48,243 nucleotides of DNA from Lachnospiraceae bacterium (GTDB lineage: Bacteria; Bacillota; Clostridia; Lachnospirales; Lachnospiraceae), in contig JAILMH010000065.1 of assembly GCA_024692715.1 (NCBI GenBank), positions 1 through 48,243 of the forward strand, written 5' to 3'. The notes beneath the pieces are model-generated. The model was given only the letters and a program-made list of their open reading frames with translations. It made no database searches and had not been told where the DNA came from. Every line of letters starts with the position of its first letter. Positions within the stretch are counted from its first letter, which is position 1. Positions 3,147 to 10,105 of this stretch are shown here, one piece after another. Both the position numbers and the translations under genes were made by a program.

Positions 3147-4163
3147 TTAATCTTCATAGCCGTTCGGATTGTTCTTCTGGAAGTTCCATGCATCACGGCA
3201 CATATCCTCAATATCAAGCTCAGCCTTCCATCCAAGCTCCTTTTCAGCCTTTTCAGGACTGCAGTAACATGTGGCGATATCGCCTGCACGACGAGGCTTG
3301 ATAGAGTACGGGATCTTGATATCATTTACCTTCTCAAAGGCCTTTACAATATCAAGTACAGAATATCCGTGTCCTGTACCAAGATTGCATATGAATGCAC
3401 CCGGCTTTGTTCTGAGCTTATCGATAGCCTTTACATGAGCCTTTGCAAGGTCTACTACATGGAGATAATCTCTTACACCTGTTCCATCAGGAGTATCATA
3501 GTCATTACCAAATACACCAAGCTCAGGTCTCTTACCTACAGCAACCTGTGTGATGTATGGCATAAGGTTATTCGGGATACCGTTAGGGTTCTCTCCGATA
3601 AGACCTGACTGATGAGCTCCGATCGGGTTAAAGTAACGAAGGATTACCATGTTCCAGTCCGGATCTGCCTTCTGCATATCAAGAAGGATCTGCTCAAGCA
3701 TCCATTTTGTCCATCCATAAGGATTTGTACATGTACCCTTTGGGCATTCCTCTGTGATAGGTATCATGGCCGGATCGCCATAAACAGTTGCTGATGAAGA
3801 AAATACGAAGTTCTTTGCTCCGTGCTTTCTCATGACATCGAGAAGAGTTAAAGTTCCTCCGATGTTGTTGTTATAATATTCCCAAGGCTTTTCAACAGAT
3901 TCGCCAACAGCTTTAAGTGAAGCAAAGTTGATGACTTCCTGGATGTCATTCTCGCTGAAGATCTTCTCAAGATCCTCACGGCTGCTGATGTCTGCCTTAT
4001 ACCATTTTACCTTCTTGCCTGTGAGCTGCTCAACTCTGTCGAGTGCCTTAGGTGAAGAATTTGTAAAATTGTCCATAACAATGGCATCATAGCCGCCATT
4101 TAAGAGTTCTACTAATGTGTGTGAGCCAATATATCCTGCTCCGCCAGTTAAAAGAATTGCCAT
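3147..4163 (-). CDS. galE: UDP-glucose 4-epimerase
   Basis: Interconverts UDP-glucose and UDP-galactose in the cytoplasm (Leloir pathway, precursor supply for envelope polysaccharides). It is an extended short-chain dehydrogenase of 338 residues. The Rossmann motif GGAGYIGSH is at 7-15, the catalytic Ser is in SSSATVYGD (122-130), and the YxxxK pair is Y149/K153. Length is normal for GalE. The ATG has GAGGAGG seven bases upstream. It lies 26 bases after the nucleotidyltransferase gene and is probably co-transcribed with it. Confidence 0.95.
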
Positions 4164-5205: not shown

Positions 5206-5331
5206 TCAAAAGCCCTGATACAACACTGTAGTTGTTGTTCCTGCAAAGACTGCATATAAAACAACTGCAAGTTCCAGCGAAAGCCATATAAATTTCACCG
5301 GTAATGGTGCCTTCTTAAAAAGCTCATTCAT
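5206..5331 (-). CDS. 41-residue single-span microprotein, DltX-like
   Basis: A short gene beginning three bases after the MBOAT stop, with an AAAGGG-type ribosome site inside the MBOAT end. It starts MNELFKKAPLPVK, runs through one hydrophobic span (about 14-33) and ends in TVLYQGF followed by TGA. The N-terminal Lys residues predict the N-terminus inside and the C-terminus outside. In D-alanylation operons a similar tiny protein, DltX, carries a conserved C-terminal Tyr/Phe motif and is reported to relay the acyl group between DltB and DltD. Tyr38 and the terminal Phe41 here fit that Y-x-x-F pattern. Its position beside an MBOAT, a carrier protein and an SGNH protein supports the same role. 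The assignment is inference from position, size and motif. Confidence 0.72.
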   Translation of the reverse strand: MNELFKKAPLPVKFIWLSLELAVVLYAVFAGTTTTVLYQGF

Positions 5332-5334
5332 ATC

Positions 5335-6558
5335 TTACACCCTTTCCATGATAAAACCTATAACATCATAGCCTACAAAACTAAAGGAAAGTGCCACATA
5401 CAGCATTGTCCACGCGTGTTCAAAAATAATTACAGGAAGCTTCTTTTCATATTCCTTATAGCCTTTTTTACCATATTTCTTCTGAAGCTTTGACTTTCTT
5501 ACAGAAGAGATCACTACGCCGAGTCCTTCAAGGAGTCCATATACAACATAGTTCAGATTTGTTCCATGCCATATTCCGGCTATCAGAAAGGTAATGAACA
5601 AAGCTGCACACTGTCCTGCGAAAAGGTTCTTTTTACACGGACCACTTATGAGTTTCTTTATCACCGGGCTGTATATATAGTCCCTTATCCACTCTGAAAG
5701 TGTTATGTGGTGCCTGTTCCAGAATTCTGTCATGGATCTTGCCATGTAAGGCTTATTAAAGTTTTCTCTGAGTGTCATTCCGCAAAGAGCCGCACCACCG
5801 GCAACTACATCACAGTATCCCACAAAATTAAAATAAATAAAAAGCGCGTTAAATACAGCAAAAAGGACATATATTATGACTGCCTTTGCCAGATTCCCGG
5901 CTTCTGATATCCTTCCGAACCAATACGAAGCAAACCACGACATAAAGGAAGAGATCACATATACCTTTACATATCCGAATATTATCCTGTGTGCCTGATC
6001 CATGACGGCATTACCGTCAAGAGCCGGCTTTTCGCTGTCGTAGAAATCTGTAACAAACTCCTCATATCTCATTATCGGGCCGGCCATTATAGTATAAAAA
6101 TTAAGGACATAATTTATATAGTCCACAATAGTTATCCTGACCTTCATCTCTCTGAGATATTCATACTGCATCGTATAATCGACTTCCCTAAAAAGAAGAT
6201 ACGAAAGTCCAAGGAATTTCAATGCCGCAAAGTATGGGAGCTTCTTAAAAATTATTATCCAGTCATAGTGCATCAGATACAAAAAGCCCACCAGCATCAG
6301 TATATAAAATAACGGCTTCAGAAATCTGCTGATACTCTTTTCACTCTCCTGCACCAGAAACGGCGCCATAAGGTATGGCGTTATTATCCAGAAAACTGCA
6401 ATTATCCCTGCATAAACACTTTTTAATGTCAGCGTAAATACTACTATATTGACAATAAAAAATATATACTGCCTCCACTCCCTTTTTAAATTCATTAGAA
6501 GAGGCATAACTATTAACAGCACCCCAAACGCGATGCTTCCAATTGAAAAGTTAAGCAT
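5335..6558 (-). CDS. MBOAT-family membrane O-acyltransferase, DltB/AlgI-like
   Basis: A polytopic membrane enzyme of about 407 residues with roughly 10-12 hydrophobic spans. The AlgI/DltB signature FWNRHHITLSEWIRDYIYSP lies near 279-298, and the catalytic-His motif GIWHGTNLNY has its His near 331. The family moves an acyl group from a cytoplasmic carrier across the membrane to an extracytoplasmic acceptor. I chose the ATG at 6556-6558, which overlaps the carrier-protein stop by eight bases (translational coupling). An upstream in-frame TTG at 6597 is less likely. It is the third overlapping gene of the operon. The substrate is probably the group loaded onto the neighbouring acyl carrier protein. 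Confidence 0.9.
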   Translation of the reverse strand: MLNFSIGSIAFGVLLIVMPLLMNLKREWRQYIFFIVNIVVFTLTLKSVYAGIIAVFWIITPYLMAPFLVQESEKSISRFLKPLFYILMLVGFLYLMHYDWIIIFKKLPYFAALKFLGLSYLLFREVDYTMQYEYLREMKVRITIVDYINYVLNFYTIMAGPIMRYEEFVTDFYDSEKPALDGNAVMDQAHRIIFGYVKVYVISSFMSWFASYWFGRISEAGNLAKAVIIYVLFAVFNALFIYFNFVGYCDVVAGGAALCGMTLRENFNKPYMARSMTEFWNRHHITLSEWIRDYIYSPVIKKLISGPCKKNLFAGQCAALFITFLIAGIWHGTNLNYVVYGLLEGLGVVISSVRKSKLQKKYGKKGYKEYEKKLPVIIFEHAWTMLYVALSFSFVGYDVIGFIMERV

Positions 6559-6790
6559 TACCAGTCTTTCTATCAATAAGCTTGATAAATTCTCCAACGT
6601 TCTTAAGCTTCATAACCTCTACTGTAGAGAACTTGCACTTAAAAGCCTCTTCAACGGCTACTACGAGCTGAACGTGTGTAAGGCTGTCCCATGCATCAAT
6701 ATCATCAGCTGTCATCTCATCTGTGATCTCGATAGTCTCATCATCAAAAACATCTCTGAAAACTTCATTTAACTTTGCTTTTGTATCCAT
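6551..6790 (-). CDS. Acyl carrier protein, DltC-like role
   Basis: A 79-residue acidic helical protein. The phosphopantetheine attachment motif is AWDSLTH, with Ser36 as the modified residue. The ATG overlaps the end of the FkbH-like gene by 22 bases and has GAGGAG eight bases upstream. Size and Ser position match stand-alone carriers such as DltC and FkbH-partner carriers. It is expected to be charged by the upstream HAD protein and to hand its acyl group to the MBOAT. Confidence 0.92.
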   Translation of the reverse strand: MDTKAKLNEVFRDVFDDETIEITDEMTADDIDAWDSLTHVQLVVAVEEAFKCKFSTVEVMKLKNVGEFIKLIDRKTGNA

Positions 6791-8553
6791 GTCTTTTTCT
6801 CCTCAACTTTATCATCTAACTTATATTCATAAAGAACTCTTGCATTATCTTCTAATGCACTAAATCCCATTTTCGCGTAAAAACTCTCAACCATTCCATT
6901 TTTCTTTGTCGGAATGTACTCGCCGATTATCCTCGTGCATCCCATTCTGCGCGCCTCTTCCTTAACGGCATTAAAGGCAAAATCCTCAACACCTCTCTTA
7001 AGGACACGGCAGGACATACACCAGTTATCTATAAAGCAGTCCTTATCTCCAAATCCTTCGACCTTATCTCCGCGCCTGAGGACTATGCACGAAATTACAC
7101 CATACGCTGAGAACTTATCAGTAAGCGATACATAAATACATCTCGTATCCTCATCCTTACACATATCAGCGATCTGGCCTTCTGAATACCTCTGCGTTCT
7201 AAGGTTGAACTGATTTGATTTATTGGTGAGCTGTGCGAATCTTTCAAGCTCTGCATCGCCTACAAGGCCACACTTTCCTTTCATTTCAAGAGCTTTTAGA
7301 TATTCGTCATAATTTACAAAGGAAGATTTCATCTCTTCGCGCTTTGCATTCTGAATATATGAATCCGAGCGCTCACGGTCTTCCTTCGTGATCGATGCCC
7401 ATTCAAAAGCTGCAGCTTCATCCAGAGCTTTTACATAATTTTCCGCATCTGTCGGAACATCGATAACTGTAACCTCCGGACAGAATTTTTTTACGATCTC
7501 TCTTTCAGCCGGATTATCATCAAAGAATACAAGCGTATCTATGCCGATATTCAGGCTCTTTGCAATGTACTGCATATTTGAAGCCTTATCATTCCAATTG
7601 GCGCAGAAACATGCAATATCATCGAGCTTGAGTATCATATCAGAGTTCTTTATAAAAGGCTCTTTGGCAACCTCTTCATCATTCTTTGAGTTAACTGCAA
7701 GAATTACCCCTCTTTTTTTAAGTGCAAGCACGTATTTCTGAAAATGACGATATGCTTCACCCACCGCATTATGCGGATCGATCTCGATTCCAAGAGGACC
7801 GTCATCTCCAACGACACCTCCCCATAAAGTATTGTCCAGATCAAGGACAAGGCATTTATTAGTGTGTCTGAACACGGCATTTATGATATTGGTCATCTCA
7901 TTGGCAACCATACCCATACAATTAAGGCTGAATCCCTGCTTTGTAAGGAAATACGAAGCTTCATCAAACCATTCATTTTTACCATAAACAGATGACAGAT
8001 ATTCCATATCTACCACATGGACATTTGACGGGTGCTCCTCTGTAAGCCGCATATTGAGCCTTCTGATCAATGACTGCATTGAATCAGCGTATAATGCTTC
8101 AAGACCGCCAAAGGGGCGCATTACCGGTGATGCAAAATTAGTCTGCAGGACCGTTACACCCTGAATTTTATCAAGGTGACTCCAGAGATTCTTTAAGTAA
8201 GCCATTTCTGCATCCACATCTTCAGCCTTTTCCATGTGAAGATCAGAATACCTCATCATCAGGATGACTGCATCCGGTTTAAATTTATAAAGCTCTGAAT
8301 CATCATCGAGAACATCCATATTTATACCGTCATATTCACCTTCGTAAATATCCGTATAAATACCGGCTCTGTCTAAATACAACCTTAAAACTCTCACATA
8401 ATGCTGAATGGAATGGGTACCAAGTACAGCGATCTTCAAAGGCTCTCTGCTTCGATCGGCTCTTGACTCCTTTTCAGGGTCTTTTATCAGAGCATTAGCC
8501 ATTTTTAAAAGCTTTGAAACAGATTCATCTGCTCTTAAACGTTCATCACTCAT
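6769..8553 (-). CDS. FkbH-type HAD-IIIC protein (acyl-ACP loading enzyme)
   Basis: A 594-residue three-part protein. An N-terminal SGNH-like domain (VLGTHSIQHYVRVLR near 43-57) is followed by a HAD domain with the DxDxT-type motif LVLDLDNTLWGG (D238, D240) and FFDDNPAERE near 343-352. A GNAT-like C-terminus covers about 420-580. FkbH proteins in antibiotic pathways take 1,3-bisphosphoglycerate, lose phosphate and place a glyceryl group on a carrier protein. That activity would replace DltA in this operon. The best start is the ATG at 8551-8553, with GGAG six bases upstream. It overlaps the SGNH gene's stop. Two further in-frame ATGs up to 8574 are less well placed. The family is firm. The exact acyl group is inference. 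Confidence 0.9.
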   Translation of the reverse strand: MSDERLRADESVSKLLKMANALIKDPEKESRADRSREPLKIAVLGTHSIQHYVRVLRLYLDRAGIYTDIYEGEYDGINMDVLDDDSELYKFKPDAVILMMRYSDLHMEKAEDVDAEMAYLKNLWSHLDKIQGVTVLQTNFASPVMRPFGGLEALYADSMQSLIRRLNMRLTEEHPSNVHVVDMEYLSSVYGKNEWFDEASYFLTKQGFSLNCMGMVANEMTNIINAVFRHTNKCLVLDLDNTLWGGVVGDDGPLGIEIDPHNAVGEAYRHFQKYVLALKKRGVILAVNSKNDEEVAKEPFIKNSDMILKLDDIACFCANWNDKASNMQYIAKSLNIGIDTLVFFDDNPAEREIVKKFCPEVTVIDVPTDAENYVKALDEAAAFEWASITKEDRERSDSYIQNAKREEMKSSFVNYDEYLKALEMKGKCGLVGDAELERFAQLTNKSNQFNLRTQRYSEGQIADMCKDEDTRCIYVSLTDKFSAYGVISCIVLRRGDKVEGFGDKDCFIDNWCMSCRVLKRGVEDFAFNAVKEEARRMGCTRIIGEYIPTKKNGMVESFYAKMGFSALEDNARVLYEYKLDDKVEEKKTWIQKQS

Positions 8554-9586
8554 TTTTTTCTCCATTGATCTCATCTATTACCTCGTTGAGATCATGATCT
8601 AGTTTTAATGTATAACGGATTGACGCCTTATAAGAAAGATGAGCTCCATCTATGAAGTCCTCTTCTTTATATTTTCCTCTATAATCCAGGTATTTGATAC
8701 CATGCTTTTTAAGAAACGGTTTCATCTTCTTTTTAATAAAACGCATGTATTTCTTACCACTGTCTGTTTCGGCAAGTCCCGGAGCAATAGGTGAAAACTC
8801 AACTACCACATTGGTCTCATTATCAAGCTGCAGCAGCTGTGTCTCAATTTTTTCAACTTTATCATCTGTAACTGAAAATGCCTTTGCCGTATTTTCATGA
8901 TTAAAATAATTATTTCGATAGTTTCCAGGGCCTATCTTAGCAGCTCTGTCCACCGGTGAAAGATACGATACACCTAATTCAAAGACATTTTGAATCCTCA
9001 TGAGATTCACTCTTAAAGCATACAAAGGATCGAGCAGTGCAGTATTTCTCTCTACTCCGAACTCAGGAGTCACACTGTATTTTCCCCATTTATCAATTGT
9101 TGATTCCGCAATGGTAGTACTATTTGCATTCCTGAAGGTCGAATACGAAACCTCAACCTTGACAATATCCGTATCCGTATACTGATACTCCTTACGTATA
9201 AGATTATCCAGGATGATATTCGTCCTCCAGGAACCTCCGCCGCTTGCAAAAATATACATATCATAGCTGTCTCTAAGACGTTCTTTCTGCTTCACAGGAT
9301 CAAATTCCAGTGCTGTAAGGGACGAACCTATCGCAATAATATTTCCATCGTCATTGTTATCTGAAGTTAAACGATCAAGCTCTGAAATAAAGCCTTCATC
9401 AACAACATGAAGACCATTTGTATACCAGGGTGCTATATAACCCTTATCATTTTCCTTAAATGCTTCGTAATAGTGATCATCAGTTATTTCCGTGATGATT
9501 ACTGCAAGACGCGCCGCCAGCCAGATCCACACTGCTGCAAGCGCCAATATTATGACCAGATATTTTAGATATAGCTTCTTATTCAT
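8546..9586 (-). CDS. Membrane-anchored SGNH/DltD-like protein
   Basis: A 346-residue protein with an N-terminal membrane anchor (about 8-31) and an extracytoplasmic SGNH-hydrolase-like domain. The nucleophile block is IAIGSSLTALEF (Ser88 or Ser89) and the C-terminal DxxH block is DGAHLSY (D313, H316), the same arrangement as DltD. DltD makes the final transfer of D-alanine onto lipoteichoic acid. This protein probably makes the final transfer of this operon's acyl group onto a surface polymer. It is the first gene of the operon, 21 bases after tadA. No strong ribosome site is visible. Confidence 0.82.
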   Translation of the reverse strand: MNKKLYLKYLVIILALAAVWIWLAARLAVIITEITDDHYYEAFKENDKGYIAPWYTNGLHVVDEGFISELDRLTSDNNDDGNIIAIGSSLTALEFDPVKQKERLRDSYDMYIFASGGGSWRTNIILDNLIRKEYQYTDTDIVKVEVSYSTFRNANSTTIAESTIDKWGKYSVTPEFGVERNTALLDPLYALRVNLMRIQNVFELGVSYLSPVDRAAKIGPGNYRNNYFNHENTAKAFSVTDDKVEKIETQLLQLDNETNVVVEFSPIAPGLAETDSGKKYMRFIKKKMKPFLKKHGIKYLDYRGKYKEEDFIDGAHLSYKASIRYTLKLDHDLNEVIDEINGEKNE

Positions 9587-9607: not shown

Positions 9608-10105
9608 TTAGTCAATATTAACAACTTTCGCTACTTTCTTTAGTTTAATTTTACCCCTCAGTTCTTTAAAAAATTCCGTCAGCAATGCTGCGCATTCTTC
9701 TCCCAGCACGCCGGATTCAACTTCTACCTGATGATTAAATCTCGGTTCATCGAGTAAATTTAAGATTGAACCTGCGCATCCTGATTTTGGTGACATCGTA
9801 CCAATTACGCATTTATCCATTCTTGCCTGCACTATGGCACCGGCACACATCGGACACGGCTCCAGCGTAACATACATGGTACACCCTTCAAGTCTCCAGT
9901 CTCCCATGACCTTTGTAGCCTTTTTTATAGCTGCTATCTCCGCATGCGCGAGTGTACTGTGATCAGTCTTACGGCGATTATAACCTCGCCCGATCACCTT
10001 TCCGTCATAAACAATGACGCAGCCGATCGGAACCTCTCCTATTCGGGAGGCCTTTCTCGCCTGCGTAATTGCCTGTTTCATAAATTTTTCTTCAACTGTC
10101 TGCAT
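9608..10105 (-). CDS. tadA: tRNA adenosine(34) deaminase
   Basis: Deaminates A34 to inosine in tRNA-Arg(ACG). The zinc site is H54-A55-E56 with PCPMC (C84, C87), and E56 is the proton shuttle. At 165 residues the length is usual. The start ATG overlaps the stop of the upstream CdaR-like gene by one base, and residue 9 (FMKQAITQA) aligns with the usual TadA N-terminus. It sits in an operon between a regulator and the acylation genes, with no evident functional link to either. Confidence 0.95.
   Translation of the reverse strand: MQTVEEKFMKQAITQARKASRIGEVPIGCVIVYDGKVIGRGYNRRKTDHSTLAHAEIAAIKKATKVMGDWRLEGCTMYVTLEPCPMCAGAIVQARMDKCVIGTMSPKSGCAGSILNLLDEPRFNHQVEVESGVLGEECAALLTEFFKELRGKIKLKKVAKVVNID

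Follow-up and report, generated by a model that had tools for sequence, protein, structure and literature searches.

A minus-strand operon with the layout of a dlt locus

In the 48,243-nucleotide stretch of Lachnospiraceae DNA analysed here (assembly GCA_024692715.1, contig JAILMH010000065.1; "the window" below means this whole stretch), five genes between positions 5,206 and 9,586 form a compact candidate operon for acylation of the cell surface. A preliminary description had read them as minus-strand genes that overlap or nearly abut, and their coordinates, strand and spacing were confirmed. In order of transcription on the minus strand, the genes encode an SGNH-type protein, an FkbH-type protein of the HAD family, an acyl carrier protein (ACP), a short MBOAT and a microprotein that we call X:

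8546..9586, minus strand: SGNH-type extracytoplasmic acyltransferase candidate, 346 amino acids; motifs IGSSL (Ser88/Ser89) and DGAHL (Asp313/His316)
6769..8574, minus strand: FkbH-type HAD protein, 601 amino acids, the proposed loader; TIGR01686 and PF21211; DLDNTLWGG (Asp245/Asp247) and Cys522 in MSCRV
6551..6790, minus strand: ACP, 79 amino acids; PF00550; phosphopantetheine serine in WDSLTH
5335..6558, minus strand: short DltB-like MBOAT, 407 amino acids from the ATG; PF03062; EFWNRHHI and AGIWHGT
5206..5331, minus strand: X, a microprotein of 41 amino acids and the proposed acyl shuttle (Tyr38); C-terminal end TTTTVLYQGF

The SGNH and FkbH genes overlap by 29 bp, the FkbH and ACP genes by 22 bp and the ACP and MBOAT genes by 8 bp, and three bases separate the MBOAT gene from X. 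A TTG at 6597 offers an alternative, upstream start for the MBOAT; because a methionine stands at the column of the ATG at 6558 in all 14 aligned relatives, the 407-residue form that begins there is the more likely. Promoter-like sites occur in the window at the chance level (31 found, 27.9 expected, standard deviation 6.4). Terminator-like sites exceed it (11 found, 5.4 expected, standard deviation 2.2), and the minus-strand ones include none that would mark where the five-gene set stops.

The loader, the carrier and the two acyltransferase candidates

The identity of the FkbH protein is well defined: it scores 300.5 bits against TIGR01686 (cut-off 146.65), also matches FkbH_N (PF21211), and its profile matches the solved structure of BF1531 (3slr) at E 4.7e-84. 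At least 97% of 52 aligned FkbH rows retain Asp245, Asp247, Thr249 and Cys522, and the DLDNT and MSCRV motifs are present in 14 of 14 orthologues; this conservation makes Cys522 the predicted acyl acceptor. The ACP matches PF00550 at 27.5 bits, and its WDSL(T/S)H motif is found in 13 of 13 orthologues.

The MBOAT matches PF03062 at 73.4 bits and the LTA_dltB model TIGR04091 at 170 bits, the latter under the cut-off of 375, and retains EFWNRHHI and AG(I/V)WHGT in all 14 genomes. At E 0.01 its profile matches just two sequences in the PDB, both of them DltB (6bug and 8jem; E 3e-37), and a profile comparison by hhalign with DltB proteins of Lachnospiraceae gives a probability of 99.8. The SGNH protein has one N-terminal hydrophobic stretch, as judged by eye, and keeps IGSSL and DG.HL.Y in 13 of 13 orthologues; on the strength of these motifs, an SGNH fold is proposed.

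Microprotein X and the acyl-shuttle motif

In the Dlt pathway, as described in PMC12148441, the tyrosine of an FXYXXF motif at the C-terminus of DltX receives the carrier-bound acyl group through DltB, and in PatA the motif is fused to the MBOAT itself. The C-terminus of the short MBOAT studied here has no such motif. X, which has a single hydrophobic span as judged by eye, ends in VLYQGF, which fits FXYXXF save for its first residue. DltX of Bacillus thuringiensis is described as having one span and a C-terminal tail outside that ends in TFIYNEF, and Gram-negative DltX proteins as sharing this topology with no sequence similarity (PMC5541007). Judged from its sequence, X resembles DltX in size and, by eye, in shape, and carries an acyl-shuttle motif of the DltX/PatA type.

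The tail is also conserved. X is intact, and keeps (V/I)LYQ(G/S)F, in all 14 distinct genomes in which the short MBOAT was found, so that a C-terminal tyrosine shuttle peptide of the wider MBOAT-SGNH kind is present on X in each of them. Eight columns are invariant among 12 aligned members, and the tail accounts for five (T35, L37, Y38, Q39 and F41). Over the last 30 codons, the mean proportion of nonsynonymous differences (pN) is 0.21 and that of synonymous differences (pS), which is near saturation, is 0.79; pN is the lower of the two in 90 of 91 pairs.

We then measured how selective the motif is among 6456 open reading frames of 30–60 amino acids, taken from the loci read and including some genomes twice. 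The pattern (F/V/I)(I/L/V/F)Y..F at the extreme C-terminus gave 28 matches. Of these, 21 are copies of X, which together cover the 14 genomes, six are DltX proteins and one is a microprotein from a Flavobacteriales contig (L131). The strict pattern F.Y..F, applied to the same frames, fails to pick up X. As a positive control, all six dlt operons with a DltA above the cut-off carry a DltX of 53–54 amino acids ending in F(V/I)Y.QF. Scans of Pfam and NCBIfam returned no family for X at E 0.1, and none of 12 X members matched the DltX family PF12459, a weak test given that a true DltX (from L154) reaches 20.9 bits against a cut-off of 25.

X begins in the frame of the MBOAT, one codon past the MBOAT stop (window positions 5331-5337). 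Read-through of that stop codon into X was considered and set aside, the two genes sharing a frame in only six of the 14 genomes.

Spread and conservation of the gene set

The gene set is more than a chance arrangement: its order recurs in other genomes, and X evolves like a protein. At a threshold of at least 45% identity, the short MBOAT was found in 12 of 48 genomes of the same genus, which together with G052 (from the FkbH search of 200 genomes of the family) and UBA1753 make up the 14 distinct genomes; these include close kin (for example, G221 and G222) and hence are not 14 independent cases. In a draw across the class, with at most four candidates scored per genome, it appeared in one of 391 genomes, the source genome itself. 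The short-MBOAT system therefore looks rare and so far is seen only in Lachnospiraceae.

The order SGNH-FkbH-ACP-MBOAT-X is unbroken in 10 of the 14 genomes. UBA1753 keeps it across an assembly gap, and in G237 a contig end truncates the set. In G218, the SGNH, ACP, MBOAT and X genes lie together, and the FkbH gene sits on a separate contig between tadA and a nucleotidyltransferase gene, the same two genes that flank the whole set in other genomes. In G226, the FkbH gene is again on a separate contig, and the ACP gene adjoins X on the opposite strand. An apparent fusion of FkbH to ACP in UBA1753 (L130), read as a single 720-residue frame, was rejected; the join spans a stretch of N.

Counting the two on another contig (G218 and G226), all 14 genomes have an FkbH protein of the operon type. 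In a tree from which frames shorter than 500 amino acids were left out, these proteins group in a single clade (100/100), together with one protein of G079. The operon-type FkbH genes of G079 (L046:6064-9922) and G226 (L152:7988-11892) follow a gene resembling the L151 aminotransferase and a YdjC-family gene (YdjC was scanned in L046 only), and both loci also lie beside genes that look pilus- or secretion-like by eye.

Absence of DltA

DltA (TIGR01734) was found in none of the 48 genomes of the genus, either over the cut-off or at E 1e-100; 22 of these genomes are at least 90% complete, and the Bacillus subtilis and Lactococcus lactis controls pass the model. The source genome likewise has no DltA over the cut-off, its best match reaching 287.8 of 559.85 bits. 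The preliminary description had seen in these genes the plan of a dlt cell without DltA, an FkbH protein standing in the loader's place, and had proposed looking for SGNH-FkbH-ACP-MBOAT neighbourhoods in other genomes; the absence of DltA and the recurrence of the set, unbroken in 10 of 14 genomes, both bear this out.

In the wider sample of the family, 6 of 200 genomes have a DltA over the cut-off, and 174 have adenylation enzymes that match at E 0.001. The 287.8-bit enzyme of the source genome (L085:5697-9582) sits with formyltransferase-like and MATE transporter genes and is not near any MBOAT found. A second, of 133.9 bits, has a small carrier of its own and lies beside a radical SAM and an ATP-grasp protein, with no adjoining MBOAT. 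In the six dlt operons of the family sample (L153-L158), dltX lies after dltD in every case; the order reported for Staphylococcus aureus is dltXABCD (PMC3783018).

A proposed mechanism and its relation to known systems

Taking these observations together, we consider it likely that the operon encodes a Dlt-type transmembrane acylation machine in which FkbH replaces the ATP-using loader DltA and makes glyceryl-ACP for a surface polymer. In such a machine, FkbH would take 1,3-bisphosphoglycerate, its HAD site would remove the phosphate, and the D-glyceryl group would be loaded onto the ACP, as expected from the FkbH family. By analogy to DltB/DltX and PatA, the short MBOAT would then take the acyl group from the ACP on the cytoplasmic side and pass it to Tyr38 of X. 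The tail of X would swing to the membrane-anchored SGNH protein, whose serine would accept the group and esterify a hydroxyl of the surface polymer.

That the acyl group is glyceryl is a prediction by analogy to the FkbH family, for which glyceryl loading has been described or proposed in assembly lines (PMC8949500, PMC7489565). FkbH can also stand in place of adenylation (A) domains in peptide lines, as described in the first of these sources; this is the same swap as the one seen here with DltA. The cell surface is thus probably decorated with glycerate esters. We lean, narrowly, towards the broader view that a carrier and a shuttle microprotein here serve a second type of envelope acylation, in which D-glyceryl is drawn from 1,3-bisphosphoglycerate with no ATP-using ligase and then esterified much as in D-alanylation.

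Comparison with known systems puts the operon closest to Dlt (DltA, DltB, DltC, DltD and DltX), with which it shares a carrier, a short MBOAT with no fused shuttle, a one-span microprotein with a tyrosine motif, an SGNH-type membrane-anchored protein and a compact layout. It differs in having FkbH where Dlt has the adenylating DltA, in an SGNH protein that is not detectably DltD, and in a microprotein that is not detectably related to DltX outside the motif and whose motif starts with Val or Ile. The PatA/PatB and AlgI/AlgX-type acetylation systems also combine an MBOAT with an SGNH protein and use an acyl-tyrosine shuttle motif, but are described as using acyl-CoA and have the motif fused to the MBOAT. 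According to a 2025 account (PMC12148441), MBOAT-SGNH pathways other than Dlt are without a carrier protein and a DltX-like microprotein; the operon, unlike these, has both, and has them without DltA. The FkbH-containing polyketide and peptide assembly lines (tetronates, methoxymalonyl-ACP, vioprolide) pair FkbH with a stand-alone or in-line carrier, but there the glyceryl group goes into a small molecule, whereas here it is predicted to reach the envelope via the MBOAT. Full-text searches of the open-licence literature gave, among the matches listed, no description of an FkbH-fed MBOAT envelope system.

If the proposal holds, gut Clostridia use the shuttle chemistry of Dlt to carry another acyl group, whose donor is taken straight from glycolysis, and glycerate esters would stand beside D-alanine among the wall modifications made in dlt style. 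Envelope decoration could then run in step with glycolytic flux, and the group added would be a neutral diol rather than a cation.

Observations that weigh against the proposal and alternative explanations

Several observations weigh against such a machine. The parts are unlinked in two genomes, G218 and G226, where all are present but lie on two contigs, and G079 has an operon-type FkbH with no short MBOAT. The absence of DltA from the source genome proves little on its own because the assembly is 90% complete; moreover, that genome has four matches to the DltA model below the cut-off (287.8, 133.9, 40.5 and 36.7 bits of 559.85), and the 133.9-bit adenylation enzyme adjoins a small carrier protein. 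Profile comparison of X with DltX shows no similarity outside the motif, and the first residue of that motif is Val or Ile, not Phe.

The SGNH protein adds to these difficulties. It matches no Pfam or NCBIfam family at E 0.1. None of eight members matches DltD (PF04914) or another SGNH family, with hits at the chance level only (E at least 0.032), whereas a true DltD scores 318 bits. Comparison with DltD by hhalign is weak (P 0.0025, probability 12%, aligned over the GSS stretch) and was obtained with an odd frame of 609 amino acids (L156) left out of the DltD set; an earlier run that included this frame gave no match for either the SGNH-DltD or the X-DltX pair. Its GSS and DxxH motifs had been called DltD-like, a description that stands for the motifs and not for family kinship with DltD, which the scans and the profile comparison do not establish.

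The acceptor presents a further difficulty. PF04464 is over the cut-off in seven of eight genomes (not in G218), with only a partial match of 45.6 bits in the source genome. PF00884 is found in eight of eight; of two hits inspected, that of G222 is LtaS/GacH-like and that of the source genome is, by eye, without N-terminal spans. From these results, no acceptor can be named, and a glycerol-phosphate polymer or a phosphoglycerol-bearing glycan is our guess. Glyceric acid has been reported in the lipoteichoic acid of Clostridioides difficile, as part of the repeat (PMC10642750), and we claim no link to it.

With these points in view, other explanations have to be considered. The same machine might carry another hydroxy acid or a processed glyceryl group (lactyl, hydroxymalonyl or similar), supplied by enzymes whose genes lie elsewhere. 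Precedents exist, as a dehydratase-ketoreductase can turn glyceryl-ACP into lactyl-ACP (as described in PMC4765723), and an oxidation of glyceryl-ACP to hydroxymalonyl-ACP has been proposed (PMC7489565). We think this unlikely: Pfam and NCBIfam scans of eight window genes, the rest of the genome not being searched and the flanks in relatives not annotated, found no such processing enzyme and no dehydratase-ketoreductase, and therefore no lactyl route is seen there. A distant adenylation enzyme might instead load the carrier with an amino acid while FkbH does something else, an idea that draws on the two full-length enzymes of the source genome with sub-cut-off scores for the DltA model (287.8 and 133.9 bits) and on the wide occurrence of such enzymes across the family (found at E 0.001 in 174 of 200 genomes, only six of which exceed the cut-off). 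However, neither of the two adjoins an MBOAT, no genome of the 48 passes the DltA cut-off, and FkbH is kept in all 14 genomes with the short MBOAT, which leaves this explanation highly improbable.

We attach similarly little weight to the possibility that FkbH and the ACP serve a soluble metabolite or lipid while the other three proteins draw on a different donor, for example acyl-CoA. The placement of FkbH away from the MBOAT set in G218 and G226, and its presence with no short MBOAT in G079, would suit such a division of labour, but in 13 of the 14 genomes the ACP and MBOAT genes adjoin or overlap (in G226 the ACP gene lies next to X, on the opposite strand), and a separate carrier together with a separate microprotein is the Dlt layout, as set out in PMC12148441. 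Least probable of all, in our assessment, is that X is simply the tail of an MBOAT, split off by gene fission and needing no special explanation. X does share the MBOAT frame in six of 14 genomes and in five of these starts 0 or 3 bases after the stop. Set against this, the short MBOATs group together in a tree (100/100), with every fused long one on the same side of a 99/98 branch. Like DltX, X shows a single span by eye, where the fused form is described as adding two (PMC12148441), and it is intact and conserved in all 14 genomes.

FkbH and MBOAT genes elsewhere in the family

The replacement of DltA by FkbH proposed here can be set beside a wider association between FkbH and MBOAT genes. 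In the family sample, we read 42 FkbH loci from 41 genomes (G079 contributing two), having dropped fragments shorter than 300 amino acids (L061, L077); G087 (L092) is without a complete FkbH frame. An ACP gene is near in 35 of the loci, and an MBOAT gene lies within 6 kb on the same strand in 20. Seventeen of these 20 MBOATs have the shuttle motif fused at the C-terminus, one ends in PAYIVF and just misses the pattern, and two are short MBOATs with X. Two of the 17 are short as read: L054 (325 amino acids, at a contig end) and L071 (415 amino acids). With six MBOATs in 2.09 Mb in the source genome, chance proximity is estimated at a few per cent of loci; therefore, FkbH beside an MBOAT is a recurring arrangement and occurs in two architectures. 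The remaining 22 loci are without an MBOAT nearby, so FkbH also serves other uses.

An ACP is also near in 15 of the 17 fused-shuttle loci, and FkbH plus a carrier stand beside fused-shuttle MBOATs in L047, L049, L053, L058, L062, L065-L069, L073 and others. These loci resemble the operon in pairing FkbH with a motif-bearing MBOAT and differ from it in that the shuttle is fused to the MBOAT and the FkbH proteins belong to other clades. With FkbH beside fused-shuttle MBOATs in 17 of 42 loci, glyceryl-type groups may be a common but so far overlooked decoration of surface polymers in the family. In L047, an AlgX-like SGNH protein (PF16822, 32.5 bits) lies between the MBOAT and FkbH.

The 99/98 branch in the tree of MBOATs separates all fused MBOATs from the short MBOATs, DltB and one flavobacterial row. 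The tree is unrooted and long branches meet in it (DltB with the flavobacterial row, support 92/71), and for these reasons we draw no order of events. The flavobacterial row comes from a Flavobacteriales contig (L131:2669-5053) with a short MBOAT, a DltD-like SGNH protein (PF04914, 29 bits) and a microprotein of 36 amino acids ending in FLYANF. It is a possible further split-shuttle system; the contig has no FkbH match.

Neighbouring genes

Three further minus-strand genes lie next to the operon:

9608..10105, minus strand: tadA, tRNA adenosine deaminase, a housekeeping neighbour; NF008113 173.1 bits
4190..5116, minus strand: nucleotidyltransferase, a conserved neighbour and probably no dedicated part; present also without the short MBOAT
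3147..4163, minus strand: galE, UDP-glucose 4-epimerase, a neighbour; TIGR01179 439.8 bits

The nucleotidyltransferase had been put forward as a possible supplier of the glycan, a suggestion now weakened. It is found in 20 of 41 genomes searched: three with the short MBOAT (G000, G200 and G245), 13 of the same genus in which none was found, and four of other families, in which the short MBOAT was not tested. Its presence in those 13 means that its adjacency to the operon is not special. The tadA gene lies 21 bases upstream of the SGNH gene in the window and is upstream of it in 9 of the 14 genomes; galE lies downstream of X in 11.

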